A DNA stretch of 37,399 nucleotides from Oscillospiraceae bacterium (lineage in GTDB: Bacteria; Bacillota; Clostridia; Oscillospirales; Oscillospiraceae), in the NCBI GenBank assembly GCA_016292255.1, contig JAEEZZ010000087.1, positions 1 to 37,399 on the forward strand. Reading direction: 5' to 3'. The notes beneath the pieces were generated by a model, which was not told the origin of the DNA, searched no databases, and worked only from the letters and a program-made list of their open reading frames with translations. Positions 3,819 through 24,169 of this stretch are shown here, in pieces. Positions within the stretch are counted from its first letter, which is position 1. Each line of letters starts with the position of its first letter. Both the position numbers and the translations under genes were made by a program.

Positions 3819-4508
3819 ATGAATTACGTGATTTCAGACGTACATGGCTGCTTTGCGCTGTTCCGTCGTATGCTGGAACGGATCCGTTTCTCTGATTCCG
3901 ATACTCTGTATCTGCTGGGAGACGTTGTTGACCGTGGGCCGGACGGCATTTCTGTGCTGCAGGATGTGATGCGGCGGGACAATGTGGTCATGCTTCTGGG
4001 CAACCATGAGGATATGTTCCGCCGCGTGATCCAGAACCGGGAAATCAAGCCGCCGATCCTGGAACGTGCGACCGCCAGGCGAATCTTTGTCAACTGGACG
4101 GAGCGCAACGGTGGGCTTGTGACCTGGGAGGCCTATCTGGCCCTTCCGACAGAGCAGCAGAAGGCGATCCGTGACTACCTGCAGCGGCTGCCCCTGTTCC
4201 GCGATCTGTCGGTGAACGGCAGAAGGTTCCTTCTGGTTCACGCGGGGGTAGGGGATTATCCGCCGAGCAAACAGCCGGAGGACTGCGATCCGATGGATCT
4301 GATCTGGACGCGTATGGACTATTCCAAGGCCTATTATGAAGACAGATACCTTGTAACAGGCCATACGCCCACGGTTCTGATCGACCCGGACTATAAAGGA
4401 AAGATCTTCCGCGGAAACAATCACATCGAAGTAGATTGCGGCGCGGTGTTCTTCGGCACCCTCGGCTGCTTTTGCCTGGACACGATGGAAGAATTCTATG
4501 TTTCTTGA
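3819..4508 (+). CDS. Metallophosphoesterase / serine-threonine protein phosphatase (bis(5'-nucleosyl)-tetraphosphatase-like)
   Basis: DVHGCF, GDVVDRGPDG, LGNHEDM, VHAGV and TGHTP motifs of PPP-family metallophosphatases. Confidence 0.85.
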   Translation: MNYVISDVHGCFALFRRMLERIRFSDSDTLYLLGDVVDRGPDGISVLQDVMRRDNVVMLLGNHEDMFRRVIQNREIKPPILERATARRIFVNWTERNGGLVTWEAYLALPTEQQKAIRDYLQRLPLFRDLSVNGRRFLLVHAGVGDYPPSKQPEDCDPMDLIWTRMDYSKAYYEDRYLVTGHTPTVLIDPDYKGKIFRGNNHIEVDCGAVFFGTLGCFCLDTMEEFYVS

Positions 4509-4578
4509 CCGGAATCGGCTTGCCTGCCCGGCTCTTTCTGTTGGGCAGCCTGTAAGGTAAAAAAGTTCAAAAAAGATG

Positions 4579-4606
4579 TTGACAAATCCGAAGAATGTGC
4601 TATAAT
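4579..4606 (+). promoter_or_regulatory. Promoter of tRNA-Gly
   Basis: TTGACA (4579-4584), 16-nt spacer, TATAAT (4601-4606). Confidence 0.75.
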
Positions 4607-4619
4607 ATCCCCGTTGCTT

Positions 4620-4695
4620 GCGGGTGTAGCTCATCCGGTAGAGCGCCACCTTGCCAAGGTGGAGGTAGCGAGTTCGAGCCTCGTCACCCGCTCCA
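4620..4695 (+). tRNA. tRNA-Gly (anticodon GCC), CCA encoded
   Basis: Acceptor stem GCGGGTG/CACCCGC, anticodon loop TTGCCAA, T-arm GTTCGAGCC, 3' TCCA. Confidence 0.93.
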
Positions 4696-4696
4696 T

Positions 4697-4732
4697 AAAA
4701 CCTCTCTTGTTCCTGACAAGGGAGGTTTTTTC
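4697..4732 (+). terminator. Intrinsic terminator after tRNA-Gly
   Basis: AAAACCTCTCTTGT-TCCT-GACAAGGGAGGTTTTTT. Confidence 0.8.
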
Positions 4733-4823
4733 ATGCCTGTTATTCTTTTTTTTCATTTGGGAACATTATCCAATTTGCGCCGTCTAAGAACCAAAGCAAT
4801 TCACAGGAAAGGAAGTATGAAAA

Positions 4824-6398
4824 ATGAAAAAGAGATCCATCCTTGCACTCCCCATGGCAGCCCTGCTTCTGGCTTCCGCTCTGACCGGATGCGCTTCAAA
4901 TGCGGTCAAGGATGCCAGCCCCGCAGACGGGAAGACCGGCGGAAAGAATTATAGGCAAGAGTTGATAGCTGAGGCCGAGTATGACGGCATGAATTCCCCC
5001 GTGGACGAACCGGATTGGAACACGGAGGAATATGATTACCAGCAGGAAAACAGCTTCCAGAGCGTCTCGGCCAATCCCTTTGCCACCTTTGCGGCGGATG
5101 TGGACACGGCTTCCTATTCCAACTTCCGGCGTCAGGTCAAGAAAGGGCAGACCGTGCGCCCGGACTCCGTTCGGGTGGAGGAGTTCATCAATTATTTCCG
5201 CTACGACTATCCGGAGCCCGAGGGAGAGGATCCGTTTTCTGTCACGCTGGAGGCCGCTCCCTGCCCCTGGAACGATCAGACTCAGCTGCTTTCCATCGGC
5301 CTGCAGGCGAAGTGTCTGAACGCAGAAGAGCTTCCGCGCTCCAACCTTGTCTTTTTGATCGACGTCTCCGGCTCCATGGATTCCGCCGACAAGCTGCCCC
5401 TGGTGCAGCGCTCCTTCTTAACGCTGGTGGAAACCCTGGATCAGAACGATACGGTCTCGATCATTACGTATTCCTCGGGGGAGGAGATCATTCTGGACGG
5501 TGCCAACGGCAGCCAGCAGCAGAAGATCGCGGCAGCGATCGAAGGACTTGTGGCGCACGGCTCAACCCAGGGCGACAAAGCCATCCAGATGGCCTACCAG
5601 CTTGCGGAGCGCCATTTCATCGAAGGCGGAATCAACCGCGTCATCATGGCGACCGACGGCGACTTCAATGTTGGCATCACCAGCGAGGGCGAATTGACCA
5701 GGCTGATCCAGGAAAACGCCAAGAACGGTGTGTATCTTTCCGTCCTGGGCTACGGGATGGGAAACTATAAGGACAATAAGCTGGAATCCATGGCCGACAA
5801 CGGCAACGGCAACTATGCCTACATCGACACCATTGACGAGGCCCGGCGGGTCCTGGTCAATGAGGCGGGCGGCACGCTCTTTACCGTTGCCAAGGACGTG
5901 AAGCTCCAGGTGGAATTCAACCCGGCGGTGATCAAGGGTTATCGGCTGATCGGCTATGAAAACCGGGTCATGTCCGCAACGGACTTTGCAGACGACAGCA
6001 AGGACGGCGGCGAGATCGGCGCAGGCCACCAGGTCACGGCGCTGTTTGAGATCGTCCCCGTGGATTCTGAATTCGAGATCCCCGAAGTGGACTCCAAGTA
6101 CAGCAAGACGGAAGCTGCACAAAACGCGTATTCCGACGAGATCGGGACGCTGAATATTCGCTATAAGGCGCCCGAGGGGAAGGACAGCACGCTGAAAAGC
6201 TATCCGATTTCCAGGGAAGTGTTCCACGAGAGCATGAGCGACAATCTGCGCTGGGCGGCCGGTGTGGCAGAGTGCGCTATGATCCTCAAGAGCTCCGCCT
6301 ACAAGGGAAGCGCTACCTACCAGAGCGCCAGAGAGCTGCTGACGCCTGCGGCGAACGACGATTTCCGGACTGAGTTCCTGGAGCTGATCGCAAAGTAA
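4824..6398 (+). CDS. von Willebrand factor type A domain lipoprotein (YfbK-like)
   Basis: Lipobox LLASALTGCAS; VWA MIDAS motif DVSGSMDSADKL; ATDGDFNVG; YfbK-type N-terminal FAADVDTASYSNFRR. Confidence 0.88.
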   Translation: MKKRSILALPMAALLLASALTGCASNAVKDASPADGKTGGKNYRQELIAEAEYDGMNSPVDEPDWNTEEYDYQQENSFQSVSANPFATFAADVDTASYSNFRRQVKKGQTVRPDSVRVEEFINYFRYDYPEPEGEDPFSVTLEAAPCPWNDQTQLLSIGLQAKCLNAEELPRSNLVFLIDVSGSMDSADKLPLVQRSFLTLVETLDQNDTVSIITYSSGEEIILDGANGSQQQKIAAAIEGLVAHGSTQGDKAIQMAYQLAERHFIEGGINRVIMATDGDFNVGITSEGELTRLIQENAKNGVYLSVLGYGMGNYKDNKLESMADNGNGNYAYIDTIDEARRVLVNEAGGTLFTVAKDVKLQVEFNPAVIKGYRLIGYENRVMSATDFADDSKDGGEIGAGHQVTALFEIVPVDSEFEIPEVDSKYSKTEAAQNAYSDEIGTLNIRYKAPEGKDSTLKSYPISREVFHESMSDNLRWAAGVAECAMILKSSAYKGSATYQSARELLTPAANDDFRTEFLELIAK

Positions 6399-8191: not shown

Positions 8192-9487
8192 ATGAAAACA
8201 GTCTACACCTGCTTCTGCACGGATGTTTTGCATGAAGGGCATATGAATATTATCCGGGAAGCACGGCAGCGGGGCAAGGTCATTGTCGGCGCGCTTTCCG
8301 ACAAGGCGCTGATCCGCTATAACAAGTTCCCCACCATCAGCCAGGAGGATCGCGTAAGGCTCTATCGGAGCATAGAAGGAGTGGAGCAGGTCGTCATTCA
8401 GGACGACGCCATGTACGATGACGTGATCACCTTGATCCGGCCGGATTATGTGGTGCACGGCGATAACTGGAGAGAAGGCCCGGAATCTGCCATCCGGCAG
8501 CACGTGGCAGACCTGCTGGCCCAATACGGCGGCGAGGTCGTTGACATTCCCTATACCTACAATGAGAAGGTCAAGAAGATCGACCTGCAGCTGCGGGAAA
8601 AGCTTGCGATGCCGGAGTACAGAAGAAAGCGGCTCCGCCAGCTCATCGAAATGACGCCTGTGGTCAAGGCCATGGAGGCGCACAGCGGCCTCACCGGGCT
8701 GATCGTGGAAAAGACCGTCGTGGAGCACGAGGGGAAGCTGGATCAGTTTGACGCCATGTGGGTCTCGTCTCTTTGCGACAGCACGGCAAAGGGCAAGCCG
8801 GATATCGAGCTTGTGGATATGACCAGCCGCTTCCGCACCATCGACGACATCATGGAGGTCACCACCAAGCCGATCATCTTTGACGGAGACACAGGCGGTC
8901 TGACAGAGCATTTTGTCTACACGGTCCGCAGTCTGGAGCGAATGGGCGTCAGCGCTGTGATCATTGAGGACAAGAAGGGGCTCAAAAAGAACAGCCTGTT
9001 CGGCACAGAGGTCCAGCAGACCCAGGCGACCATCGAGGAATTCAGCGCGAAGATCGCCGCCGGCAAGAAGGCCCAGCTGACAGACGACTTCATGATCATC
9101 GCCCGGATCGAAAGCCTGATCCTGGAGAAGGGGATGGAGGATGCGCTGGAACGTGCCCGGGCCTTTGTCAAGGCAGGGGCGGACGGCATTATGATCCACA
9201 GCCGGAAGAAGGATCCTGCGGAGATCGTGGAATTCTGCGACTGTTTCCGCCAGGAGAATACGAAAACGCCCATCGTGGTGGTGCCCTCAAGCTTCAACGT
9301 GATCACCGAGGAGGAGTTGGCGCAGCATGGGGTGAATATCGTGATCTATGCGAACCAGCTGACCAGATCGGCGTTCCCGGCCATGCAAAAGACGGCGGAG
9401 GATATTCTCCGCTATCACCGGGCCAAGGAAGTGGACGACCGCCTGATGCCCATTAAGCAGATCATCACATTGATCGACGAACTGTAA
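8192..9487 (+). CDS. aepX: Phosphoenolpyruvate mutase with N-terminal cytidylyltransferase-like domain
   Basis: N-terminus CTDVLHEGHMNIIREA (HxGH nucleotidyltransferase motif); C-terminal part FDGDTGG and IEDKKGLKKNSL (PEP mutase motif EDKxxxKxNS). Confidence 0.9.
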   Translation: MKTVYTCFCTDVLHEGHMNIIREARQRGKVIVGALSDKALIRYNKFPTISQEDRVRLYRSIEGVEQVVIQDDAMYDDVITLIRPDYVVHGDNWREGPESAIRQHVADLLAQYGGEVVDIPYTYNEKVKKIDLQLREKLAMPEYRRKRLRQLIEMTPVVKAMEAHSGLTGLIVEKTVVEHEGKLDQFDAMWVSSLCDSTAKGKPDIELVDMTSRFRTIDDIMEVTTKPIIFDGDTGGLTEHFVYTVRSLERMGVSAVIIEDKKGLKKNSLFGTEVQQTQATIEEFSAKIAAGKKAQLTDDFMIIARIESLILEKGMEDALERARAFVKAGADGIMIHSRKKDPAEIVEFCDCFRQENTKTPIVVVPSSFNVITEEELAQHGVNIVIYANQLTRSAFPAMQKTAEDILRYHRAKEVDDRLMPIKQIITLIDEL

Positions 9488-9499
9488 GAGGAAAAACAG

Positions 9500-10621
9500 A
9501 TGAGAGTTGAACGACTTGTAGAGATTATCGGCGCTGACTTTTATACCGGCGTGCCGGACAGCCAGCTCAAGGCTCTTTGCAATTATCTGATGGCGCGCTA
9601 CGGAATCGACCCGAAGCACCACGTCATCGCAGCAAACGAAGGCAACTGCACGGCGCTTGCCGCAGGCTATCACCTGGCTACCGGCAAGGTCCCCGTGGTG
9701 TATATGCAGAACTCCGGCGAGGGCAATATCATCAATCCGGTAGCCAGCCTGCTGAACGACAAGGTGTACGCCATCCCGGTGGTGTTCATTGTGGGCTGGC
9801 GCGGAGAACCGGGGGTGCATGACGAGCCGCAGCATATCTACCAGGGCGAGGTGACCGTAAAGCTTCTGGAGGACATGGGGATCTCCGCGTTTGTGATCGG
9901 GAAAGAGACCACAGAGGAAGCCCTCTCGGCCAAGATGGAGGAGTTCCGGACGATTCTCGCCGCGGGTAAGGACGTCGCCTTTGTGATCCGCAAGGGCGCT
10001 TTGACCGACGCGCCGAAGGTGGAATACCGGAATGACAATACCATGATCCGGGAGCAGATCATTCAGCATATCGTAAAAATCAGCGGGGAAGACCCGGTCG
10101 TCTCCACCACGGGAAAGGCCAGCCGGGAACTGTTTGAGACCAGGGTGGCCAACGGACAAAGCCACAAATACGACTTTTTGACCGTCGGCTCCATGGGGCA
10201 CAGCTCTTCCATCGCCCTTGGAGTGGCGATTCAGAAGCCGGAGCAAAGGATCTGGTGCGTGGATGGCGACGGCGCGGTTCTGATGCACATGGGCGCCATG
10301 GCGGTCATCGGAACCAATCACCCGAAGAATCTGATCCATGTGGTGATCAACAACGGCGCCCATGAGACGGTCGGCGGGATGCCTACGGTGGCAAAGGATA
10401 TCGATCTGGTGGCGATCGCAAAGGCCTGCGGTTATCCGTATGCAGTATGTGTGGATAATTTTGACGACCTGGACAGAGAGCTTGCCGCCGCGAAGCAAAG
10501 AAATGAGCTCAGCCTGATTGAGGCCAAGTGCTCTATCGGCGCCAGAGAGGATCTGGGACGGCCCACGACCACCGCGCTGGAAAACAAGCGGAACTTTATG
10601 GAGTACCTTTCTACACTTTGA
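9500..10621 (+). CDS. aepY: Phosphonopyruvate decarboxylase (ThDP-dependent)
   Basis: FYTGVPDSQLKALCNYL, ANEGNCTALAAGYHLATGK, YMQNSGEGNIINP, ThDP motif GDGAVLMHMGAMAVIG...NN. Confidence 0.92.
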   Translation: MRVERLVEIIGADFYTGVPDSQLKALCNYLMARYGIDPKHHVIAANEGNCTALAAGYHLATGKVPVVYMQNSGEGNIINPVASLLNDKVYAIPVVFIVGWRGEPGVHDEPQHIYQGEVTVKLLEDMGISAFVIGKETTEEALSAKMEEFRTILAAGKDVAFVIRKGALTDAPKVEYRNDNTMIREQIIQHIVKISGEDPVVSTTGKASRELFETRVANGQSHKYDFLTVGSMGHSSSIALGVAIQKPEQRIWCVDGDGAVLMHMGAMAVIGTNHPKNLIHVVINNGAHETVGGMPTVAKDIDLVAIAKACGYPYAVCVDNFDDLDRELAAAKQRNELSLIEAKCSIGAREDLGRPTTTALENKRNFMEYLSTL

Positions 10622-10806: not shown

Positions 10807-12438
10807 ATGAGCAAGCTGACGAATAACGAGAGAATCGATGAGGCTGTAAAAAGGTACAAAAATGAATTGCCGCGCCTGGTGAAGGCACTGAACCGGATCT
10901 TAAAGAATGCAGAGGCGGACGAGGACCTTTTTGCGGTCGGAAAAATCAATCTGTTTCTTTCTATTTGCTACTTCGATTTGGGAGATCGAAGCAGCATTTT
11001 CCCTTACGCCATAAAGGCGGTGAGCGTTTTTGAGAAATTAGGCAATCATAATTTCTTGCCCCGCAGCTATAATATTCTGGGCCTCGCTTATCTGGCGCTT
11101 GGTAATTATCAGCTTGCCCTTTCCACATACAACAAGGCGCTTGCCACGATCCGCCGCCGGAAGAGACCGGGCCTGAGCAAAGATACCATTCTGAACAATA
11201 TTGCAGAGTGCTATTATGAGATGGGGGAGTACCGGAAGGGTAATCGCATCTATGAAGACTGCTTCCGTGTGGTTCGGACAACGCGGCCCGACGATCATGT
11301 ATGCGCGGTCATTTACGGCATTAACATCTCTGACTGTTATGAGAGCTGCGGCGACTACCAAAAGGCGCTCAATATCCTGGATACCATCAAGCCAAATTGT
11401 GATGTACTCGACCGGGAAGTCCTCGTTTGGGGATATTACGGCAGGCGCTGCTGTGTGCTGTATCTGCTTGGCCTTACAGAGGAGGCCGAGCAGTATGCGG
11501 ATCTTGTGATAGACGCCGTGACAACCAATTACGATTCCTATGAATTCCATCGGGATTTTGAGAAGATCGCGGCGCAGGAGGTAAAATCCGGCGACTTTGT
11601 ACGCGCCCAGCGCTTTGCAGATATTCTGAAAAAATATGCCGATGAAAACGGCAATACCATCGATATGATCCTGTCCAAACGGGTACAGGCGAATATCTGC
11701 TATGCCAAAGGTGAGATGGATGCTGCATTGGGGCTCTATAAGGAATTGAACGTCCTCTATGAGAGGCGCATCAAGGAAGAGAACGCGATGCAGTACGAGA
11801 TCCAAAAGAACGCGGACACTGCCACAAAGGAAGTATCAAAGCTGATGAAGCGGGTTCGCGACAGCGAACAGAGGGCGCAGCGGGATGCTCTTACCGGGTT
11901 GATGAACCGTTCGGCTTTGACCAGCGTCGCAGAGACTTTCTTCAATGAGGCCAAGGAGCGTGGAAAATGCCTGGGCGGTATTTTCCTGGATATTGACTAC
12001 TTCAAGGAGTATAACGACACCTATGGCCACGCGGCAGGGGACGAGGCCATTAAGTATATCGCCAGGCAGTGCATGGAAGAAGAAACTTCCACCGTGAAAT
12101 TCTTCCGATACGGCGGCGATGAGTATTTCGGATTTATTCTTGGTCATAAGGAAAAAGATCTGCAGGCGCTTGCGCTTCGTATTTCCGAAAAGGTCCGCGC
12201 TTCCGCGATTGACCATGTCAAGAATCCCAACGGCCAGCGGATCACTGTGTCCATCGGTATCGTCAATATTGATTTGAAAAAGTCTGATGATTCTGTGCTG
12301 GATATTATCAAGTATGCAGACAGAGCTCTTTATCATGCGAAGGATCGGGGTAAGGACGACGTGTTCCAATACTGTGTCCTTGACAATTCTGAGCACGAAT
12401 TCAGGCGAGTTTGCTCCGATGAGAAGCAAAACAGATAG
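10807..12438 (+). CDS. TPR-GGDEF putative diguanylate cyclase, array copy 1 (subfamily A)
   Basis: 543 aa, no TM segment; TPR-like helices (NYQLALSTYNKALATI); DALTGLMNRSAL, FLDIDYFKEYNDTYGHAAGDEA, FRYGGDEYFG. Confidence 0.9.
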   Translation: MSKLTNNERIDEAVKRYKNELPRLVKALNRILKNAEADEDLFAVGKINLFLSICYFDLGDRSSIFPYAIKAVSVFEKLGNHNFLPRSYNILGLAYLALGNYQLALSTYNKALATIRRRKRPGLSKDTILNNIAECYYEMGEYRKGNRIYEDCFRVVRTTRPDDHVCAVIYGINISDCYESCGDYQKALNILDTIKPNCDVLDREVLVWGYYGRRCCVLYLLGLTEEAEQYADLVIDAVTTNYDSYEFHRDFEKIAAQEVKSGDFVRAQRFADILKKYADENGNTIDMILSKRVQANICYAKGEMDAALGLYKELNVLYERRIKEENAMQYEIQKNADTATKEVSKLMKRVRDSEQRAQRDALTGLMNRSALTSVAETFFNEAKERGKCLGGIFLDIDYFKEYNDTYGHAAGDEAIKYIARQCMEEETSTVKFFRYGGDEYFGFILGHKEKDLQALALRISEKVRASAIDHVKNPNGQRITVSIGIVNIDLKKSDDSVLDIIKYADRALYHAKDRGKDDVFQYCVLDNSEHEFRRVCSDEKQNR

Positions 12439-12462: not shown

Positions 12463-14091
12463 ATGGAAAAGCTGTCATTGAGTGATCGGATAAGTCGTGC
12501 GATTAAACAATATCCGAATGATCCTTTCCGCCTGGCACAGGAGCTGAAAAAGCTTCTCAGAGTTGCGGAGAGGGAAAAAGACGTCTATAATATCGGAAAG
12601 CTCAATTTGAACCTTGCGATCTGCATTGTCCACCAAGGTCGGCGTGACAGTATTATTCCCTATGCCTATAAGGCAGTCAGTATTTTGGAGACACTGAACG
12701 ATCCGGCGCTGCTTTCACGCAGCTACAACCTGCTTGGCATTGCCTATGCCGGGCAGGGCAATTATCAGCGCGCCCTGGAATCCTACAATAAGGCGCTGAA
12801 GGTGATTCGCGGCAGGAAGAAGCCGGGCGTTCGGAAGATCACCCTGCTGAACAATATCGGCGATGCCTATTTCTCAATGGGCGCCTTTGATAAGACGCTC
12901 AAAATTTCACAGGACTGCCTTTCCTTCTGCAGAGCGCATTCGCCGGACGACCACACGGCGATCGTCCTGTACGCGGTCAACATTTTTGACAGCTATATCA
13001 GCATGAATGATTTCCGGAGAGGGCAGGAGATCCTTGACGAGGTTCAGCAGGATGCCGAATTCCTTCCCGAAAGCATATTGCTGTGCGGGTATTATATCAG
13101 AATGTCCTGTGCGCTTTACGCGAACGGCGACCCGATTGGTGGAGCCAAATATGCGGATCTGATGTTAAAGCTGGTCCATGCACATCTGGACACCTATGAG
13201 TTCCACTCGGTCACCGTGCGGATCGTTTCCTTCCAGCTCCAAATCGGCGACTTTGAAAGAGCCCGGATCATTTCCGATACCCTGACAGAGTACGCAGAGA
13301 AAAGCGGCCACGCCTTGGATCATATCATTGCAAAGCGCGTCCTGGGCAATATTTGCTATGCCAGCGGCGATTATGATCGCGCCCTCTCCCTGTTCAAGGA
13401 ACTGAACGTGCTCTACGAGGAGTGGATGACGGAGCAGAAGACCATGCAGTATGAGGCGCAAAAGAGTATCGACGCCGCCAACAGAGAGATCTTAAAGCTG
13501 ATGAATAAGGTACGTGCCAGCGAAGAAAAAGCGGAGCGCGATCCGCTTACAGGCTTGATGAATCGCTCTGCGCTGGTCAATGTTACCACGGAGTTTATTG
13601 AAAAGTCCAAGGCGCTGGGCAAGAAGCTGGGCGGTATCTTCCTGGATATCGATTATTTCAAGGAGTATAACGACAGCTACGGCCATGCCGCCGGAGATGA
13701 GGCGATCAAGTTTATCGCGAAGATCTGCCTGGATGAGGAATCACAGAACATTAAGTTTTTCCGGTACGGCGGCGATGAGTACTTCGGGGTCATCCTGGGC
13801 TTCCGTGACGAGGAATTGCGTAAGCTGGCGTTCCGGATTTCTCAGAAGATAAGGGCCTCCGGCTTTGAACATCTCAAGAATCCCAACGGTCAGCGGCTGA
13901 CCGTTTCAGTCGGTATCGTCAACGTCGATATGAAGAAATCCGGCTACACGATCCTGGATATCATCAAGTATTCGGATGAGGCGCTTTATCATGCCAAGGA
14001 TCGCGGCAGGGATGATGTGTTTGAATACTGCTTTTTGCCCGATGCGGAGCATGAATTCAGGCGCCTCGAGAGCAATGCGAAGGCTGAATAG
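12463..14091 (+). CDS. TPR-GGDEF putative diguanylate cyclase, array copy 2 (subfamily B)
   Basis: 542 aa; NDPFRLAQELKKLLR, YAYKAVSILE; DPLTGLMNRSAL, DIDYFKEYNDSYGHAAGDEA, FRYGGDEYFG. Confidence 0.9.
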   Translation: MEKLSLSDRISRAIKQYPNDPFRLAQELKKLLRVAEREKDVYNIGKLNLNLAICIVHQGRRDSIIPYAYKAVSILETLNDPALLSRSYNLLGIAYAGQGNYQRALESYNKALKVIRGRKKPGVRKITLLNNIGDAYFSMGAFDKTLKISQDCLSFCRAHSPDDHTAIVLYAVNIFDSYISMNDFRRGQEILDEVQQDAEFLPESILLCGYYIRMSCALYANGDPIGGAKYADLMLKLVHAHLDTYEFHSVTVRIVSFQLQIGDFERARIISDTLTEYAEKSGHALDHIIAKRVLGNICYASGDYDRALSLFKELNVLYEEWMTEQKTMQYEAQKSIDAANREILKLMNKVRASEEKAERDPLTGLMNRSALVNVTTEFIEKSKALGKKLGGIFLDIDYFKEYNDSYGHAAGDEAIKFIAKICLDEESQNIKFFRYGGDEYFGVILGFRDEELRKLAFRISQKIRASGFEHLKNPNGQRLTVSVGIVNVDMKKSGYTILDIIKYSDEALYHAKDRGRDDVFEYCFLPDAEHEFRRLESNAKAE

Positions 14092-14280: not shown

Positions 14281-15894
14281 ATGGAAAGGTCGAAAATAGA
14301 TGATCGGATCGAACAGATCATGAAAGATCATCGGCGTGATTATCCGCGGCTTGAACGTGAGCTCAAGAAGTGCCTGAAGGAAGCGGAAAAAGACGGTGAG
14401 ATTATGCTCATCGGCAAAATCAGCCTGTATCTGTCCATGTGCTATTTCGAGATGGGCGACCGGGTTCGCATCCTTTCGCATGCTTTTAAGGCTGTTGGCA
14501 TTTTTGAAAACTCGGATGATATGACGTTGCTTGCCCGCAGCTATAACCTGCTCGGCATTGGTTACGGTGCCCAGGAGAATTACCAGCTTGCTTTGGCTTC
14601 CTACAACAAGGCGCTGGATACGATCCGCGGCCAGAGAAAGCCCGTGTTGAGAAAGGAAATGATTCTCAACAACATTGCCGATTGCTATTATCAGATGGGC
14701 GAGTACCAGAAGAGTATCCATCTGATGAAGGGTTGTTTGTCCACCTGCCAGAAGAAGAATCCGGACAATCATGCCTCCATCTCGGTTTACGGTCTGAATC
14801 TTTCCGATTGTTACGAAAGCCTCGGGGAGATCCAGCAGGCAAAAGAGATTCTGGACTGCGTTGAGCCCGACGTTAAAACGCTGGGAGAAGATTCTCTGGT
14901 CTACGGCTACTACGCCAGACGCTCCGTGATCCACTATCGGCTTGGCGATTTGGAAAAGGGTGCGGAATATGCCGATCTGACCTTGAGTGGGATGAATATT
15001 ATTCATGACCTTTATGAATTCCACCGGGATTTTGAAAGGATCGCGTCTTTGGAGGTCCAGGCCAACGACTGCGATCGCGCCCAGAAATTTGCGGATATTC
15101 TGTCGGAGTATGCCAATTCGAACGGGCATACCTTTGAGCTGATCATTGCCAAGCGTGTCCAGGCGAGTATCTTTGATGCCCGCGGCGATCGGGCCAATGC
15201 GCTGGAGCTCTATAAGGAACTCAATGATCTGTATGAAAAGCGCGTGCAGGAACAGAACGCAATGCAGTATGAGAGCCAGAAGAATGCCGAAGCTGCCAGC
15301 AGAGAGATCGCAAAGCTGATGAAGAAGATCCGCATCAGTGAGGAGAAAGCCGAACGCGATCCGCTTACAGGGCTGATGAACCGTTCCGCTTTGGTCAGCA
15401 TCACGAATGAGTTCGTTCAAAGCGCCAAGGAACACAACAAAAAGCTCGGCGGTATTTTCCTGGATATCGACTATTTCAAGGAATATAACGACACCTACGG
15501 CCATGCCGCAGGCGACGAGGCAATCAAGTATATTGCCAGTGTTTGCCTGGGTGAGGAGACTTCGTCCATCCGCTTCTTCCGGTATGGCGGCGATGAGTAT
15601 TTCGGCGTGATCCTGGGCCATAAGGATGAGGACGTGGAAAAGCTCGCCCTACGAATTTCCGAGACGGTCCATTCCTCCGGCTACCAGCATATCAAGAACC
15701 CCAACGGTCAGCGGCTGACCGTATCCATTGGTGTGGTCAATGTGGATATGAAGGATTCCGACTATACCATCCTGGATATCATCAAGTACGCGGATAAAGC
15801 GCTTTACCACGCAAAGGATCGTGGAAAGGACGTCGTTTTTGCCTATCATGCGTTGGCAAATTCCGAGCATGAATACAGGCGGGTTCGCACTTAA
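14281..15894 (+). CDS. TPR-GGDEF putative diguanylate cyclase, array copy 3 (subfamily A)
   Basis: 537 aa; TPR-like N-terminus; DPLTGLMNRSAL, DIDYFKEYNDTYGHAAGDEA, FRYGGDEYFG. Confidence 0.9.
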   Translation: MERSKIDDRIEQIMKDHRRDYPRLERELKKCLKEAEKDGEIMLIGKISLYLSMCYFEMGDRVRILSHAFKAVGIFENSDDMTLLARSYNLLGIGYGAQENYQLALASYNKALDTIRGQRKPVLRKEMILNNIADCYYQMGEYQKSIHLMKGCLSTCQKKNPDNHASISVYGLNLSDCYESLGEIQQAKEILDCVEPDVKTLGEDSLVYGYYARRSVIHYRLGDLEKGAEYADLTLSGMNIIHDLYEFHRDFERIASLEVQANDCDRAQKFADILSEYANSNGHTFELIIAKRVQASIFDARGDRANALELYKELNDLYEKRVQEQNAMQYESQKNAEAASREIAKLMKKIRISEEKAERDPLTGLMNRSALVSITNEFVQSAKEHNKKLGGIFLDIDYFKEYNDTYGHAAGDEAIKYIASVCLGEETSSIRFFRYGGDEYFGVILGHKDEDVEKLALRISETVHSSGYQHIKNPNGQRLTVSIGVVNVDMKDSDYTILDIIKYADKALYHAKDRGKDVVFAYHALANSEHEYRRVRT

Positions 15895-15956
15895 GCGTGA
15901 ATCATTTGGAGTTTTTCCAAGCTGTGTCTTCAGTTTCCCAGGACGGTCAATCTGAA

Positions 15957-16008
15957 TAGAATGCGGAACGGGAAACAGACCTCTATGCAATCGGAAAAAT
16001 CAGAATGC
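15957..16008 (+). pseudogene. Short relic of a subfamily-B TPR-GGDEF gene
   Basis: agaatgcggaacgggaaacagacctctatgcaatcggaaaaatcagaatgca closely matches copy 5 at about 17665-17716; translates NAERETDLYAIGKIRMQ versus NAERESDLYAIGKISML. Confidence 0.75.
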
Positions 16009-16050
16009 AGGTCACTGAATAATAAGCGGTTTTTTGATCCGGTTTGACCG

Positions 16051-16086
16051 ACTTCTCCCTTCGACAGAAGGGAGAAGTTCTTTTTG
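16051..16086 (+). terminator. Intrinsic terminator after array copy 3
   Basis: ACTTCTCCCTTC (16051-16062), GACA loop, GAAGGGAGAAGT (16067-16078), T-rich tail. Confidence 0.85.
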
Positions 16087-16116: not shown

Positions 16117-16145
16117 TTGATTATTTTCTTATTAATTGTTATAAT
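16117..16145 (+). promoter_or_regulatory. Promoter upstream of decayed array copy 4
   Basis: TTGATT (16117-16122), 17 nt, TATAAT (16140-16145). Confidence 0.7.
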
Positions 16146-16179: not shown

Positions 16180-17393
16180 AGGGAACGGACGACATTAGAC
16201 GAGCGAATCACGCAGGCCTTCAAAAAATACCGTGGCGACAATAAACACCTGGTTGTGGAATTAAAGAAGTTTCTGAAAGAAGCGGAAGTAGCCGGTGATG
16301 TCCAATATATCGGCAAGTTGAATATGCACATCGCGGGCTGCTATTTTGATTTGGGCAACCGGGTCAAGATCCTTCCGTATGCGCTGAAGGCTGTCAACAT
16401 TTTTGAAAACTCGGATAACCGTTCCTTGCTTGCTCGCAGTTACAACATTCTCGGCATCGCCTACCATGCACAGGATCTGACCTACGAATATGTGATCAAC
16501 GGAACGGATTCATACGAGGGACATCTTGATTTTGAGAAGATCTCAAAGCAGGAAGTCCGGTTCGGCGAATACGAGCGTGCACAGCGCTTTGCTGATATCC
16601 TGATAAAGTATGCAGAAGAGAACGGACATACGCTGGATCAGATCATTTCCAAGCGCGTGCAGGCGAACATTTCTTATGCCGTCGGCGAAGAGAAACGGGC
16701 GTTGAACTCTATCGGGAGCTGAACGATCTCTATGAGAAGCGCATGAACGAAGATAATGTGATGCAGTACGAAAGCCAGCGTAATGCGGAGGCCGCGACGC
16801 GAGAAATCACAAAGCTGATGAGAAAGATCCGCGACAGTGAGGAGAAGGCCGAAAGGGACGCTCTTACGGGCCTGCTGAACCGCTCGGCCCTTGTGAATAT
16901 AGCGGAAGAGTTTCTCCGCGATGCCAGGAATAACGGAAAGAAGCTTGGCGGCATTTTTCTTGACATTGACTATTTCAAGGAATACAACGACACCTACGGC
17001 CATGCTGAGGGTGACTTGGCTATCAAGTATATTGCAGATGTCTGCAAGGGAGAAGAATCCTCGCAGATGAAGTTTTTCCGATACGGCGGGGACGAATTAT
17101 TTGGAATTGTCCTGGGATGGGAAGATAAAGACCTGGAAGCCGCGGCCCTTCGGATTTCAGAGGCGATACGCGCATCCGGCATTGCACACGTCAAAAACCC
17201 GAACGGGCAGCGCTTGACGGTGTCGATCGGCATTGTCAATGTGGATATGAAGGGCTCCGATGAAACGATCCTGGATATCATCAAGTACACGGATAAAGCG
17301 CTGTATCATGCGAAGGATCGCGGCAAGGACGATGTGTTTGCATATCATAATCTGCCCAATGCCGCGCATGAATACGAACGCGTGGAGCGCTGA
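16180..17393 (+). pseudogene. Decayed TPR-GGDEF gene, array copy 4 (subfamily A); GGDEF half remains open as 16743..17393
   Basis: Expected ATG GAA is AGG GAA at 16180; in-frame ERITQAFKKYRGDNKHLVVELKKFL follows; ~133-aa TPR segment missing at about 16474; 1-nt deletion near 16704 (ttgaactctatcgggagctg where ttg-gaa-ctc-tat is expected) shifts frame; 216-aa GGDEF ORF follows. Confidence 0.85.
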
Positions 17394-17537
17394 CGGCTTA
17401 ATACGGCCGGAAATAACGGGATGTTGTGTGCGCTTCTCATGCTTCATCGGGGGAGACGCACGAATATCGGAAGATCCAATCTGCATGATCGCTTCTGCTT
17501 GGATGTTTTCCATAGCCGCCTTACATGATTTGATCCT

Positions 17538-19181
17538 ATGCAGGGAGTGAATGATGTGAAACAGCAGTTGTTAAGAGATCGGATCGATCAAGTCGTCCGG
17601 GAAAACAAGAATGATCCGTTTCGACGTGAACAAGAACTCAAAAAGCTGCTCAAGGAAGCGGAAAAGAATGCGGAACGGGAATCAGACCTCTATGCGATCG
17701 GAAAAATCAGTATGCTGTTGGCAAACAGCATTCTCGGCCAGGGAAAACGCGGAACGATGCTTTCCTATGCTTACAAAGCGGTGAGCATTTTTGAGAAAAC
17801 AAACGAACGGGCCCTTCTTGCACGCAGTTATAATCTTCTGGGCATCGCGTATTCCGGCCTGGGAAATTATCTTCGCGCTGTTTCGGCATACAACAATGGC
17901 CTCCGGATCCTCCGCGGCCGTGATTGCGACTTGATCAAGAAAAACACCCTGCTGAATAACATCAGTGATGCGTATTATCACATGGGTGTCTATGAGAAGA
18001 GCTATAGCATTTCTACGGACTGCTATGAGAACTACAGGCATACAGCGCAGGATAATCCGCTCCGGGCGATCGTCTTCGGCTTGAACGTCTGCGACAGCTG
18101 CCTTGGCTTGGAAAACTATAAAAGGGCAAAGGAGATCCTTGACGAGATCAAAGGGGAGATCGATAACAGCCCCAAAAGCATTTACGTGTGTGCCTATTAT
18201 ACCAGACTTTCCTATGTGCTGTATGTGACCGGCGACATGGAGGGCGGCGAAAAGTTTACGGACATGGCGTTCGATCTGATCGACCAGAATCTGGACTATT
18301 ACGACAATCACATCTTTTATACGAAGATTGCCGCGATCCAGATCGATCATGGCGACTATGATCGTGCCCTGCGCTATTATGCCGCCATGGCGAAGTATGC
18401 CGAGGAGAACAACCACACCCTGGATCTGATCATGGCCAAAAGTGTTCGGGCCAACATTTGCCGCGCAAGGGGAGAGCAGGATCAAGCCCTCGCGATCTAC
18501 AAAGAGCTCAGCGCACTGTATGAGACATGGATCAGCCAGCAAAGGGCGATGCAGTACGAGGGGCAAAAGAGCTTGGAGGATGCGAACAAAGAAATCGTAA
18601 AGCTCATGAAGAAGATCAAAAGCAGCAATGAGCTGGCGGAGCGCGATCCGCTTACGGATTTGATGAATCGATCCTCCCTGATCAGAGTTTCAAGCAGCTT
18701 TCTTCAAACGGCCAAGGAAAAGAAAAGGCATCTCGGCGGGATCTTCTTTGATATTGATTGCTTTAAGGAGTACAACGATCATTACGGTCATGCCGCGGGC
18801 GACGAGGCTATAAAGCTTGTTGCGAATGTTTGCAAGAGTGAAGAATCCGCAACGATCAAATTCTTCCGCTACGGCGGCGATGAGTACTTTGGCGTCATTC
18901 TTGGTCACAGTGACGAGAGCATCGAAAAGCTTGCGCTTCGGATTTCGGAAAAGGTTCACGATGCCGGGCTTGAGCACGTTTTGAACTCCAACGGCAAACG
19001 CTTGACCGTATCCATCGGCATTGTCAACCTGGACATGAGAAAGTCCGACGCGACGATCCTGGACATCATAAAATTCGCAGACAAGGCACTGTACCGTGCG
19101 AAGAATTCCGGGAGAGACTGTGTGTACGCGTTCCGATACAGAGCTGATTCGGGGAATGAATATAAGCAGGTGGTTCAATAG
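17538..19181 (+). CDS. TPR-GGDEF putative diguanylate cyclase, array copy 5 (subfamily B); start probably GTG at 17556
   Basis: 547 aa; NDPFRREQELKKLLKEAEK, YAYKAVSIFE; DPLTDLMNRSSL, DIDCFKEYNDHYGHAAGDEA, FRYGGDEYFG; AGGGAG at 17540 suits the GTG at 17556. Confidence 0.88.
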   Translation: MQGVNDVKQQLLRDRIDQVVRENKNDPFRREQELKKLLKEAEKNAERESDLYAIGKISMLLANSILGQGKRGTMLSYAYKAVSIFEKTNERALLARSYNLLGIAYSGLGNYLRAVSAYNNGLRILRGRDCDLIKKNTLLNNISDAYYHMGVYEKSYSISTDCYENYRHTAQDNPLRAIVFGLNVCDSCLGLENYKRAKEILDEIKGEIDNSPKSIYVCAYYTRLSYVLYVTGDMEGGEKFTDMAFDLIDQNLDYYDNHIFYTKIAAIQIDHGDYDRALRYYAAMAKYAEENNHTLDLIMAKSVRANICRARGEQDQALAIYKELSALYETWISQQRAMQYEGQKSLEDANKEIVKLMKKIKSSNELAERDPLTDLMNRSSLIRVSSSFLQTAKEKKRHLGGIFFDIDCFKEYNDHYGHAAGDEAIKLVANVCKSEESATIKFFRYGGDEYFGVILGHSDESIEKLALRISEKVHDAGLEHVLNSNGKRLTVSIGIVNLDMRKSDATILDIIKFADKALYRAKNSGRDCVYAFRYRADSGNEYKQVVQ

Positions 19182-19202: not shown

Positions 19203-20828
19203 GTGGAAATGGACAAATCAGAATTGCTTGCACGCGAGAAACAGATCCTGAGTGATTATAAACGCGGCACCGTACCGCTTTTGAGGGAATTGAAAAAATT
19301 CCTGAAGGAAGCGGAAAAAGCTGAGGATCTTGGTTATATCGCCAGGACCAATTTGTCGATCGCCATTTGCTATTTTGAACTCGGCAATCGAATCAATATC
19401 CTTCCCTATGCTGTCAAGGCTGCGGAGGTCTTTGAAACCCTGAATGAACAAAACCAGCTTGCGTCCAGCTTTAATATTGTTGGGCTTGCGTACAGAGCCA
19501 CGGGCAATTACATTCGCGCCGTGGAATACTATGAACGTGCGATAAAAACGATACGCGGTCTGAAAGAACCCTTTGTCCGCAAGGACGTCATTCTCAGCAA
19601 TATCGCAGAAGCCTACTTTTTGATGGGAGAATATAAGGTCGCTGCCCGTCTGTTAAAGCGCTGTGTTTCCGTGATTCGCACGAAGCATCCGGAAGATCAC
19701 GTCAGCGCAGTGATTTACGCGATCAATATTTCGGATGCTTACGAGGCGCTTGGAGAGCTGGAGAAAGCGATCAATGCGCTGGATGCTGCCGTAAACGAGG
19801 CTGAGCTTTCAGATCGGAAGGTCCTCCTGTGGGGGTATTATGCCAGAAGAAGCTGCGTCCTGTACAAGCTTGGCAGAGTGGATGAGGCGCAACGATATGC
19901 CGATCTGACCATCGATTCTGTGCATACCGGGTATGACTCCTATGAATTCCACCGTGATTTTGAGAAAATTGCCAGACTTGAGGTGGAAGCCGGCGATCTG
20001 GTCAGAGCGCAGCAATTCGCGGATATCCTGGCAGACTACGCGGAAAAGAACAAAAACACCATCGATCTGATCATTGCAAAACGCGTTGAGGCCAATATCT
20101 GCGATTCTCGCGGGGATTGCGACCGGTTGTTTGCCCTCTATAAAGAGCTCAGCGCACTGTATGAGAAGCGAGTCAAAGAACAGAACGCAATCAAGAATGA
20201 CAGTCAGAAACGAGTTGAGCTTGCAAGCAAAGAGATTGCGAGCTTGATGAAGAAGATCCGCCTCAATGAGGATAAAGCGGAGCGGGATCCGCTTTCCGGC
20301 TTGTTGAACCGGGCTGCGCTCGTCAGTATTACAGACGACTTCATACAGAAAGCGAAAACAGCCGGAAAGAAGCTTGGCGGCATCTTTATTGACATCGACT
20401 ATTTCAAAGAATTCAATGACACCTACGGCCATGCGGCAGGGGATGACGTGATCCGTGTGGTTGCAGGCAACTGCATGGAAGAAGAGAGCGACACAGTGAA
20501 ATTCTTCCGCTATGGCGGCGATGAGATCTTCGGAATTGTTCTCGACCATAAGGACGCGGAGATTGAAGCGCTTGCGCTGCGGATCGTCGAGCGGGTCCAT
20601 GCCTCCGGGGTCGAGCACAGAAAAAACCCCAGAGGGCAGAGACTGACGGTGTCCGTTGGCATTGCCAACATCGACATGAATCGGGCAAACAATACGATGC
20701 TCGACATCATCAGAAATACGGACAGCGCGCTCTACCGTGCGAAGAATTACGGAAGAGACGCAGTGTTCGCGCTTCATTCTGAGTCAGATTCTGAGCAGGA
20801 GTATCGTAGAGTCGTGGCCCAAGCATGA
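19203..20828 (+). CDS. TPR-GGDEF putative diguanylate cyclase, array copy 6 (subfamily A); ATG at 19209 is the likely start
   Basis: 541 aa; DPLSGLLNRAAL, DIDYFKEFNDTYGHAAGDDV, FRYGGDEIFG. Confidence 0.88.
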   Translation: MEMDKSELLAREKQILSDYKRGTVPLLRELKKFLKEAEKAEDLGYIARTNLSIAICYFELGNRINILPYAVKAAEVFETLNEQNQLASSFNIVGLAYRATGNYIRAVEYYERAIKTIRGLKEPFVRKDVILSNIAEAYFLMGEYKVAARLLKRCVSVIRTKHPEDHVSAVIYAINISDAYEALGELEKAINALDAAVNEAELSDRKVLLWGYYARRSCVLYKLGRVDEAQRYADLTIDSVHTGYDSYEFHRDFEKIARLEVEAGDLVRAQQFADILADYAEKNKNTIDLIIAKRVEANICDSRGDCDRLFALYKELSALYEKRVKEQNAIKNDSQKRVELASKEIASLMKKIRLNEDKAERDPLSGLLNRAALVSITDDFIQKAKTAGKKLGGIFIDIDYFKEFNDTYGHAAGDDVIRVVAGNCMEEESDTVKFFRYGGDEIFGIVLDHKDAEIEALALRIVERVHASGVEHRKNPRGQRLTVSVGIANIDMNRANNTMLDIIRNTDSALYRAKNYGRDAVFALHSESDSEQEYRRVVAQA

Positions 20829-20863: not shown

Positions 20864-22486
20864 TTGACTATGAAGAAATCAGAATTGGATTTACGGGTCG
20901 ATCAGATTGTGAAGGATACAAAGAACGCTTACGATCGACGCGAAAAGAAGCTCAAGAAGATATTGAAGGAAGCAGAGAGAGCGGAAGACGTATACGTCAT
21001 CGGGCGGATCCATCATCTTCTTTCCCTGTGCTATTTCGATCTGGGAAGCAGGAACAAGATCCTTCCCCACGCCGTCAAAGCAGTGGATATCTTTGAAAAG
21101 CTGAATGACAAAAGGATGCTGGCCCGCAGCTATAATCTCCTGGGAATTGCCTATCTGGCGCAGGGGAATTATTTGCGTGCCGTTGAGTATTATAACCGTG
21201 CGCTGGAGAAGACCTACAGGCAAAAAAAGCCCGGCATTCGCAGGGATGTCATGCAGAATAACATCGCTGAATGCTATTATTTGATGGGCGAGTACAGCAC
21301 GAGCATTCGACTGATGAAGAAGTGCTTCTCTGTCATCCGTACCAAACGTCCGAACGATCACGTCAATGCGGTGATTTACGCGATCAACCTTTCCGACGAC
21401 TATGAAGGAATGGAACAATACGAGAACGCGCTGGAGACCCTTGACAGCGTCAAGCCGGACGTGGAGCTTCTTGCCCGTGATGTTCTGCTCTGGGGCTACT
21501 ATGCCAGACGCTGCTGTGTGTTGTATAAGATCGGAAAGCTGGAGGAAGCGGCATCATATGCCGATCTGACGATTGAGGCGATAAACAACGGGTATGATTC
21601 CTATGAGTTCCACCGGGACTTCGAGAAGATCGCAAAGCTTGAGGTGCGTGTCGGTGACTACGAAAGAGCGCAGGGCTTTGCGGACATTCTGACCAGGTAT
21701 GCGGATACCAACGGCCATACCATTGATAAGATTATCTCCAAACGCGTTCAGGCAAACATCTGTATTGCCCGCGGGGAATCAGACCGTGCCCTTGCGCTCT
21801 ATAAAGAGCTCAGCAGCCTCTACGAGAAGCGCGTACGGGAGCAAAACGCCATTCAGTACGAGAGTCAGAAAAACGTCGAGGCCGCAAGCAGGGAAATTGC
21901 GAATCTGATGAACAAGATCCGGGCCAGCGAAGAGAAAGCGGAGCGAGATCCGCTTTCCGGGCTGTTGAATCGCGGCGCATTGATCAACATTTCCAGCGGC
22001 TTCTATCAGAGCGCAATAGAAAAGGGAACGACGCTCGGCGGCGTGTTCCTGGATATTGATTTCTTCAAGGAGTATAATGACACCTACGGTCACGCAGCAG
22101 GTGATGATGCGATCCGATCTATCGCAAAGGCTTGCCTGGAAGAGGAAAACGGAAACGTCAGATTTTTCCGCTACGGCGGGGACGAGTTTCTCGGTATTGT
22201 TCTCGGCTATCGGGATGGAGACTTGGAAAAGCTTGCACTGCGGCTCTGGGAAAGAGTTCGTACATCGGGTATTGAGCACGTCAAAAACCCAAATGGACAG
22301 TGCCTGACGGTATCCGTCGGTATTGTGAATATCAATGTGAAAAACAGTGATGATACGGTACTGGATATTATCAAGTATTCGGATAAGGCGTTGTATCACG
22401 CAAAGTCAGCAGGGAAGGACGACGTATACGCGATTTGCACTGCGAAGCAGGGCGAGCTTGAATATCGACGACTCGTGAAGCCCTGA
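20864..22486 (+). CDS. TPR-GGDEF putative diguanylate cyclase, array copy 7 (subfamily A); ATG at 20870 is the likely start
   Basis: 540 aa; DPLSGLLNRGAL, DIDFFKEYNDTYGHAAGDDA, FRYGGDEFLG (the only canonical GGDEF in the array). Confidence 0.9.
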   Translation: MTMKKSELDLRVDQIVKDTKNAYDRREKKLKKILKEAERAEDVYVIGRIHHLLSLCYFDLGSRNKILPHAVKAVDIFEKLNDKRMLARSYNLLGIAYLAQGNYLRAVEYYNRALEKTYRQKKPGIRRDVMQNNIAECYYLMGEYSTSIRLMKKCFSVIRTKRPNDHVNAVIYAINLSDDYEGMEQYENALETLDSVKPDVELLARDVLLWGYYARRCCVLYKIGKLEEAASYADLTIEAINNGYDSYEFHRDFEKIAKLEVRVGDYERAQGFADILTRYADTNGHTIDKIISKRVQANICIARGESDRALALYKELSSLYEKRVREQNAIQYESQKNVEAASREIANLMNKIRASEEKAERDPLSGLLNRGALINISSGFYQSAIEKGTTLGGVFLDIDFFKEYNDTYGHAAGDDAIRSIAKACLEEENGNVRFFRYGGDEFLGIVLGYRDGDLEKLALRLWERVRTSGIEHVKNPNGQCLTVSVGIVNINVKNSDDTVLDIIKYSDKALYHAKSAGKDDVYAICTAKQGELEYRRLVKP

Positions 22487-22516: not shown

Positions 22517-24169
22517 ATGGGAGGTGTGGAAATGGAAAAGCAGCCATTGGATAAACGAATTGATCTTGTGTCGGATAAACATAAGAACGATCCTTATCTT
22601 CGTGAAAAGGAATTGAAGCTTTTACTGAAGGAAGCAGAGAAGTGCGCCGATCTCCATGCAATCGGGAAAACCAATCTGTACATATCGATTAGTATTTTCA
22701 ATCAGGGGAAACGGGGCAGTATGCTTGGGTACGCCTATAAGGCGGTCAGCGTTTTGGAAAAGCTGAATGACCCGTCCCTTCTTGCACAAAGCTATAATCT
22801 GATGGGAATCGCCTATGCGGGCCTTGGCAGCTTTCAGAGCGCGATCACATACTATAATAAGGCACTTCAGCTTGTCCAAGGCAAAAAGAACCCGAGCATC
22901 CGAAAGGAAACACTGTTGAACAATATCGGTGATTCCTATTTTCAGATGGGGGCATTTCAGAAAAGCCTTCGGATCTCCTTAGACTGTCTTTCCGGCTGCA
23001 GGAAGAAAAACCCGGAGAATCACAGAGCAATGATCCTCTATGGCATCAACTGCTCCGACAGCTTTTGCAGCTTGGGTCAGTTCAGCCAGGCGAAGGAGGC
23101 CCTGGACAGCGTTGAACCGGATGCGAAATACATTGAACACCCGATCCTTTTGTGCGGCTATTATACCCGTCGGTCCTATGTTCTCTATGCCATCGGCAAT
23201 GCAGAAGAGGGCGCAAAGAATGCGGACCTGGTTCTTGAGCTTGCACATTCCAACGGAGATTCCTATGAATTTCACTACTATTTTGAACAGATAGTCGGTT
23301 TTCAGATCAAGATCGGCGATCTCGAACGGGCAAAGCGCTTTTCCGATACACTGACGCAATATGCCTCGGTTGGAGGACATACCCTGGATCAGATCACTGC
23401 GAAACGTGTGGAGGCCATGCTTTGCATTGTCTGCGGCGACCGTGACCGCGCTTTGGAGCTCTACAAGGAAATCGCGTCGCTTTTCGATGAGCTGCTGAAA
23501 GAGAAACGGGAAATTCAGTATGAGAGCCAGAAGAGCGTGGATATCGCCCGTTTGGAGATCAGTAAAATGATGCAGAAGATCCGGATGAACGAGGAAAAAG
23601 CGGAACGGGATGCGCTTACCGGCTTGATGAACCGCTCCGCGTTGGTCACTGTCTCCGGCGAATTCATCGAAAACGCAAAAAAGAACAAGAAAAAAATCGG
23701 GGGTATTTTCCTCGATATCGACTATTTCAAAGAGTATAACGACACCTACGGCCATGCAGCGGGGGATGAAGCCATCAAGCTGATCGCAAACGTCTGTAAG
23801 GCGGAGGTGAATGCTTCGGTGAAATTCTTCCGATACGGCGGCGATGAGTATTTCGGTCTCGTCCTTGGACACAGCAACAAAAAAATGGAGGAGCTTGTCC
23901 TGCGTATTTACGATAACGTCCGCAGCTCCGGCGTCAAGCACGTTAAGAATCCAAACGGGCAGCGCCTGACCGTGTCAGTCGGTGTTGTCAATGTGGATTT
24001 GCAGAATACGGATATCACCATCCTGGACATTATCAAATACGCCGACCGTGCGTTGTACCATGCAAAGGACCGTGGAAAGGATGACGTTTTCGCCTACATT
24101 CCGATGCCTGGTTCTGAGCATGAATATAAACGAATCAGCCCGGATGCATTTCTGGTACAGGAACAGTGA
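22517..24169 (+). CDS. TPR-GGDEF putative diguanylate cyclase, array copy 8 (subfamily B); ATG at 22532 is the likely start
   Basis: 550 aa; NDPYLREKELKLLLKEAEK, YAYKAVSVLE; DALTGLMNRSAL, DIDYFKEYNDTYGHAAGDEA, FRYGGDEYFG. Confidence 0.9.
   Translation: MGGVEMEKQPLDKRIDLVSDKHKNDPYLREKELKLLLKEAEKCADLHAIGKTNLYISISIFNQGKRGSMLGYAYKAVSVLEKLNDPSLLAQSYNLMGIAYAGLGSFQSAITYYNKALQLVQGKKNPSIRKETLLNNIGDSYFQMGAFQKSLRISLDCLSGCRKKNPENHRAMILYGINCSDSFCSLGQFSQAKEALDSVEPDAKYIEHPILLCGYYTRRSYVLYAIGNAEEGAKNADLVLELAHSNGDSYEFHYYFEQIVGFQIKIGDLERAKRFSDTLTQYASVGGHTLDQITAKRVEAMLCIVCGDRDRALELYKEIASLFDELLKEKREIQYESQKSVDIARLEISKMMQKIRMNEEKAERDALTGLMNRSALVTVSGEFIENAKKNKKKIGGIFLDIDYFKEYNDTYGHAAGDEAIKLIANVCKAEVNASVKFFRYGGDEYFGLVLGHSNKKMEELVLRIYDNVRSSGVKHVKNPNGQRLTVSVGVVNVDLQNTDITILDIIKYADRALYHAKDRGKDDVFAYIPMPGSEHEYKRISPDAFLVQEQ

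Follow-up and report, generated by a model that had tools for sequence, protein, structure and literature searches.

Background

The described systems closest to the locus reported here are tandem arrays of paralogues under birth-and-death evolution, templated (filler) insertions together with tandem-duplication scars, and the TPR-GGDEF diguanylate cyclases. Nothing specific to arrays of such cyclases was found in the literature. The locus lies within a 37,399 bp stretch of DNA, referred to here as the window, from an Oscillospiraceae gut bacterium with relatives from ruminants; this stretch forms contig C102 in a draft genome of 2.94 Mb (168 contigs, 86% complete). It consists of a short gene fragment, denoted relic 1, located between the third and the fourth of eight tandem genes (c1 to c8).

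As in tandem paralogue arrays, a short truncated copy of a neighbour, an in-frame stop codon and an adjacent pseudogene were identified, and the copy number differs between related species. Compared to birth-and-death gene fragments, however, only 55–60 bases with sharp edges are present here, and their parent can be identified as a living neighbour, c5, instead of an independent copy that has been lost. With templated insertions and tandem-duplication scars the locus shares a short direct copy from about 1.7 kb away, at a junction that is occupied by a gene in siblings; on the other hand, no Ku gene was found here. As for TPR-GGDEF diguanylate cyclases, the parent genes match both Pfam families, whereas the relic covers only codons 42–59 of c5.

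The TPR-GGDEF array in the window and in related species

The eight tandem genes of the window encode TPR-GGDEF proteins (Table 1), which are probable diguanylate cyclases; the parent genes of the relic score above the cut-off for Pfam PF00990 (GGDEF) and TPR_12 (PF13424). In a tree of 24 array genes, c2, c5 and c8 formed one clade with the last gene of the sibling arrays L045, L047 and L048 (support 100/100), and this clade is the subfamily B of the initial annotation. A B gene closes the units c1-c2 and c6-c7-c8. Genes encoding phosphoenolpyruvate mutase and phosphonopyruvate decarboxylase precede the array (window 8192–10621). The decarboxylase gene occupies the identical place in each of the three siblings; downstream of the array, the sequence is unlike theirs.

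Arrays of this kind were detected in 4 of the 23 genomes of the genus, the present genome counted. The siblings represent other species, with one genome per species, and all are metagenome assemblies of Oscillospiraceae: L045 comes from water-buffalo rumen, L046 and L048 from dairy-cattle duodenum, and L047 from the RUG series. Eight copies are present here, against 4 in L045 and in L047, both of which show the gene order A, A, A (the c4 orthologue), B. The gene after the c3-like gene, which has 67–69% protein identity to c3, is an A gene in 3 out of 3 siblings (L045, L046 and L047) and never a B gene; L045_g2 and L047_g2 did not group together in the tree. Because siblings have an A gene after their c3-like gene, the slot now holding the relic probably lost an A gene, the alternative being that an A gene was gained in the siblings. 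The initial annotation had expected a B gene after c3, which disagrees with the A gene found there in these species. It had also suggested a comparison with sibling strains, in which a full-length B gene in this slot would speak for its reading and the fragment with never a gene there would speak against it; in the sibling species no full-length B gene was found in the slot, nor was the fragment without a gene, since a match search of the sibling spacers returned no relic fragment and the A gene is present.

In the sibling array L048 (genome G007), the last, B-type gene (4507–6114) is split by an in-frame TAA, and decay may thus also have occurred in a sibling array.

Table 1 Positions in the window of the array genes and of the features around the two relics
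Feature	Position	Strand	Description
c1	10807-12438		
c2	12463-14091		B type
c3	14281-15894	+	A type, TPR + GGDEF
Relic 1	15954..16008	+	Fragment derived from c5 (codons 42-59 and one further base); matches 17661-17715 at 51/55 bases
In-frame TAG within relic 1	15957..15959	+	AAG in c5; precedes NAERETDLYAIGKIRMQVTE
Intrinsic-terminator-like hairpin and T-run	16050..16079	+	41 nt 3′ of relic 1
Promoter-like TTGATT-17-TATAAT of c4	16117..16145	+	Conserved upstream of c4 orthologues
c4	16180-17393	+	Pseudogene
Relic 2	17420..17488	+	c4-c5 spacer; DVVCASHASSGETHEYRKIQSA followed by a stop; probable C-terminal end of an A-type (c3-like) gene
c5	17538-19181	+	B type; parent of relic 1
Source segment within c5	17661..17715	+	Includes (part of) the private 12-nt insertion of c5
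c6	19203-20828		
c7	20864-22486		
c8	22517-24169		B type

Relic 1 and its parent gene

The initial annotation had reported, for 15957–16008, a string (located at 15958–16003) that nearly equals about 17665–17710 of c5 and reads in frame, and its coordinates, frame and comparison proved correct (51/55 identical, E about 1e-18). In the blastn self-comparison of the window, relic 1 and the c5 segment aligned on the same strand without gaps, with 82.4 bits and an E value of 2e-18, far beyond chance. Only two places matched in a genome-wide search with the relic (E 1.2e-16), and no copy of the fragment other than c5 turned up in its own genome, nor any in 401 genomes sampled from the family. A chance match was rejected, since none of 500 dinucleotide shuffles reached the relic–c5 score (90, against a maximum of 34). 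At lower stringency the match reaches left to 15949 (60 nt, 90%), and the exact runs common to the relic and c5 do not exceed 17 nt. Read in the c5 frame, the relic gives E-stop-NAERETDLYAIGKIRMQVTE-stop, with four changes from c5 (AAG to TAG, TCA to ACA, GCG to GCA and AGT to AGA). It corresponds to the edge of the first TPR match of c5, with none of the GGDEF domain covered.

Relic 1 stems from c5 itself, and not from an independent B gene, because blastn gives it over twice as many bits against c5 as against c2, the next copy (34.6), and because it reads through an insertion private to c5. At this place c5 has four extra codons (12 nt) that none of the other 22 aligned array genes has, although the alignment leaves the placement of the insertion ambiguous by a few codons. 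These extra codons (window 17658–17681) possibly represent an imperfect 12-nt tandem repeat, GCGGAAAAGAAT/GCGGAACGGGAA. The fragment had been annotated as a relic of a subfamily-B gene, and it is indeed a dead fragment of a B-type gene, but one coming from c5 rather than from a generic member of the subfamily. The copying from c5 is recent, as the relic differs from c5 at 4 of 55 positions (0.073, 95% interval 0.02–0.18), compared to about 57% at fourfold sites between species, a value (~0.57) near saturation.

Edges and flanks of relic 1

Relic 1 sits in the spacer between the stop codon of c3, 59 nt to its left, and the terminator, and is predicted to be part of the 3′ untranslated spacer of c3 and to make no protein. 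Neither the left 59 bases nor the right 41 bases showed similarity to c5, to the c5 flanks or to any copy beyond that of control windows and shuffles, and both edges of the relic are thus sharp. Since retained c5 sequence would be obvious at 7% divergence, the unmatched flanks count against a longer c5 copy. A candidate flank homology, GTGAATCATTTGGA near the c5 start, was rejected as it did not beat the controls. A nearby TAA lies in frame with the relic (QVTE followed by the stop); the loose likeness of this end to a cyclase C-terminus was not significant, the controls again not being beaten. When the left flank was checked for foreign origin, no second place was found in the genome.

On the right side, the terminator-promoter block from 16050 belongs to c4 and is conserved in L045, its promoter part being clearly conserved in L047. 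In L045 and, on inspection of the spacer, in L047, the same terminator-like element precedes the c4 orthologue. In both siblings the stop codon of the preceding A gene is located 38 nt before the sequence corresponding to the terminator, compared to 41 nt for the relic end, as though the right junction coincided with the point where a lost A gene had ended.

Decay of c4 and a probable second relic

Alignment with L045_g3 and L047_g3 showed three changes in c4: the start codon is lost (ATG to AGG), an in-frame internal deletion has removed about 411 nt, TPR repeats included, and the loss of one base near 16700 causes a 1-nt frameshift. By these alignments c4 is a pseudogene carrying three lesions, while conservation of its promoter is seen in the siblings.

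The spacer between c4 and c5 contains relic 2, probably the final ~23 codons of a cyclase gene of the A type, its own stop included. Support for relic 2 is moderate: it was detected by blastx with an E value of 5e-4 in a small database and by nhmmer with an E value of 0.017; with the protein profile, 7 of 2000 control sequences scored higher, 6 of the 7 being shuffles. The assignment gains weight because the match is on the sense strand and at the very end of the profile, with a stop soon after. The initial annotation had described the array as being in birth-death turnover, which agrees with the c4 pseudogene, the probable relic in the c4-c5 spacer and the 8 versus 4 copies.

Origin of relic 1

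Relic 1 is probably a recent, non-functional copy of an internal piece from the N-terminal part of c5, left by illegitimate recombination, and not a worn-down ninth B gene. The slot after c3 would have lost its A gene, and there are two routes by which the c5 piece could have reached the junction. Perhaps a template switch or filler synthesis copied 55–60 bases of c5 where the A gene was lost. Otherwise, a tandem duplication would have run from just before the c4 terminator into codon 59 of c5, and one later deletion would have reached back to the 3′ flank of c3, a route that would require no special enzyme. Both routes would yield the observed right junction, at which c5 ...ATGC runs into the c4 terminator-promoter block. 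No duplicated c4 sequence is left that would mark a tandem duplication. Ku-dependent end joining was rejected, as the lack of any Ku gene found in the genome (86% complete) makes classical end joining unlikely. The c4 pseudogene and the other gene end in the c4-c5 spacer count in favour of recombination as the source of the fragment.

A stretch of 55 bases is too short to rule on a longer ancestor, and a complete ninth gene, that is, a c5 duplicate between c3 and c4 cut to 55 bases by at least two deletions, has to be weighed as a possible, though rather unlikely, origin. The relic keeps the orientation and frame of c5, there is clear turnover nearby, and the layout, in which the units c1-c2 and c6-c7-c8 end in B, would accommodate a B gene ahead of the terminator at 16050. 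Such a history, however, demands that a full duplication was followed by two or more deletions, with more than 96% of the gene gone within four substitutions per 55 bases, and it places a B gene in a slot where the siblings have an A gene and never B. Against the complete ninth copy envisaged by the initial annotation, the fragment is c5-derived, recent and abrupt at its edges, with no further c5 sequence on either side. We therefore retain a recombination scar as the favoured origin, at somewhat better than even confidence. An assembly artefact, namely a chimeric join in the draft contig, is highly improbable. The genome is a draft in many contigs and the siblings are metagenome assemblies, but the longest exact run shared with c5 (17 nt) is below the k-mer sizes that assemblers normally use, the two copies differ by four substitutions, and what lies to the right of the relic is the terminator-promoter block that is conserved in the siblings.

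We also give very little credit to a functional fragment, which would either serve, within the c3 3′ UTR, as a sense decoy to a small RNA targeting c5 mRNA or act as a template for reverse-transcription-based editing of c5. Three of the four relic–c5 differences fall on an A in the relic and the genome has two reverse-transcriptase genes, but these genes (an RT-Cas1 fusion and one of unassigned type) are on other contigs, no Rfam match was found in the array, the siblings are without the fragment, and the fold signal (z -2.45) covers a stretch including the terminator hairpin and is not separated from it. That the c5-derived segment would be kept in the c3 3′ UTR as a sense decoy coupling c3 to c5 expression is fainter still. 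A known or structured RNA was rejected, given the missing Rfam match and the extent of the fold signal over the terminator. The template of a diversity-generating retroelement was likewise rejected, with no reverse-transcriptase match on the contig of the window and one of the four differences not at an A of the relic. The reverse transcriptase-Cas1 fusion protein is encoded on contig C52 of the same genome (L153, 1306–3207); the second reverse transcriptase, on contig C101 (L154, 272–1567), falls below the cut-off of every NCBIfam model.

Implications for the array

The locus represents ordinary genome evolution in an unusual array. It provides direct evidence, from the sequence, for ongoing remodelling of a row of TPR-GGDEF cyclase paralogues in one species lineage, as seen in what is probably a recent c5-derived scar, in a pseudogene, in a probable second gene end and in the differing copy numbers of the siblings. 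It also serves as a warning that a gene scrap is not always a lost gene, and that it can be a rearrangement scar from a living neighbour.
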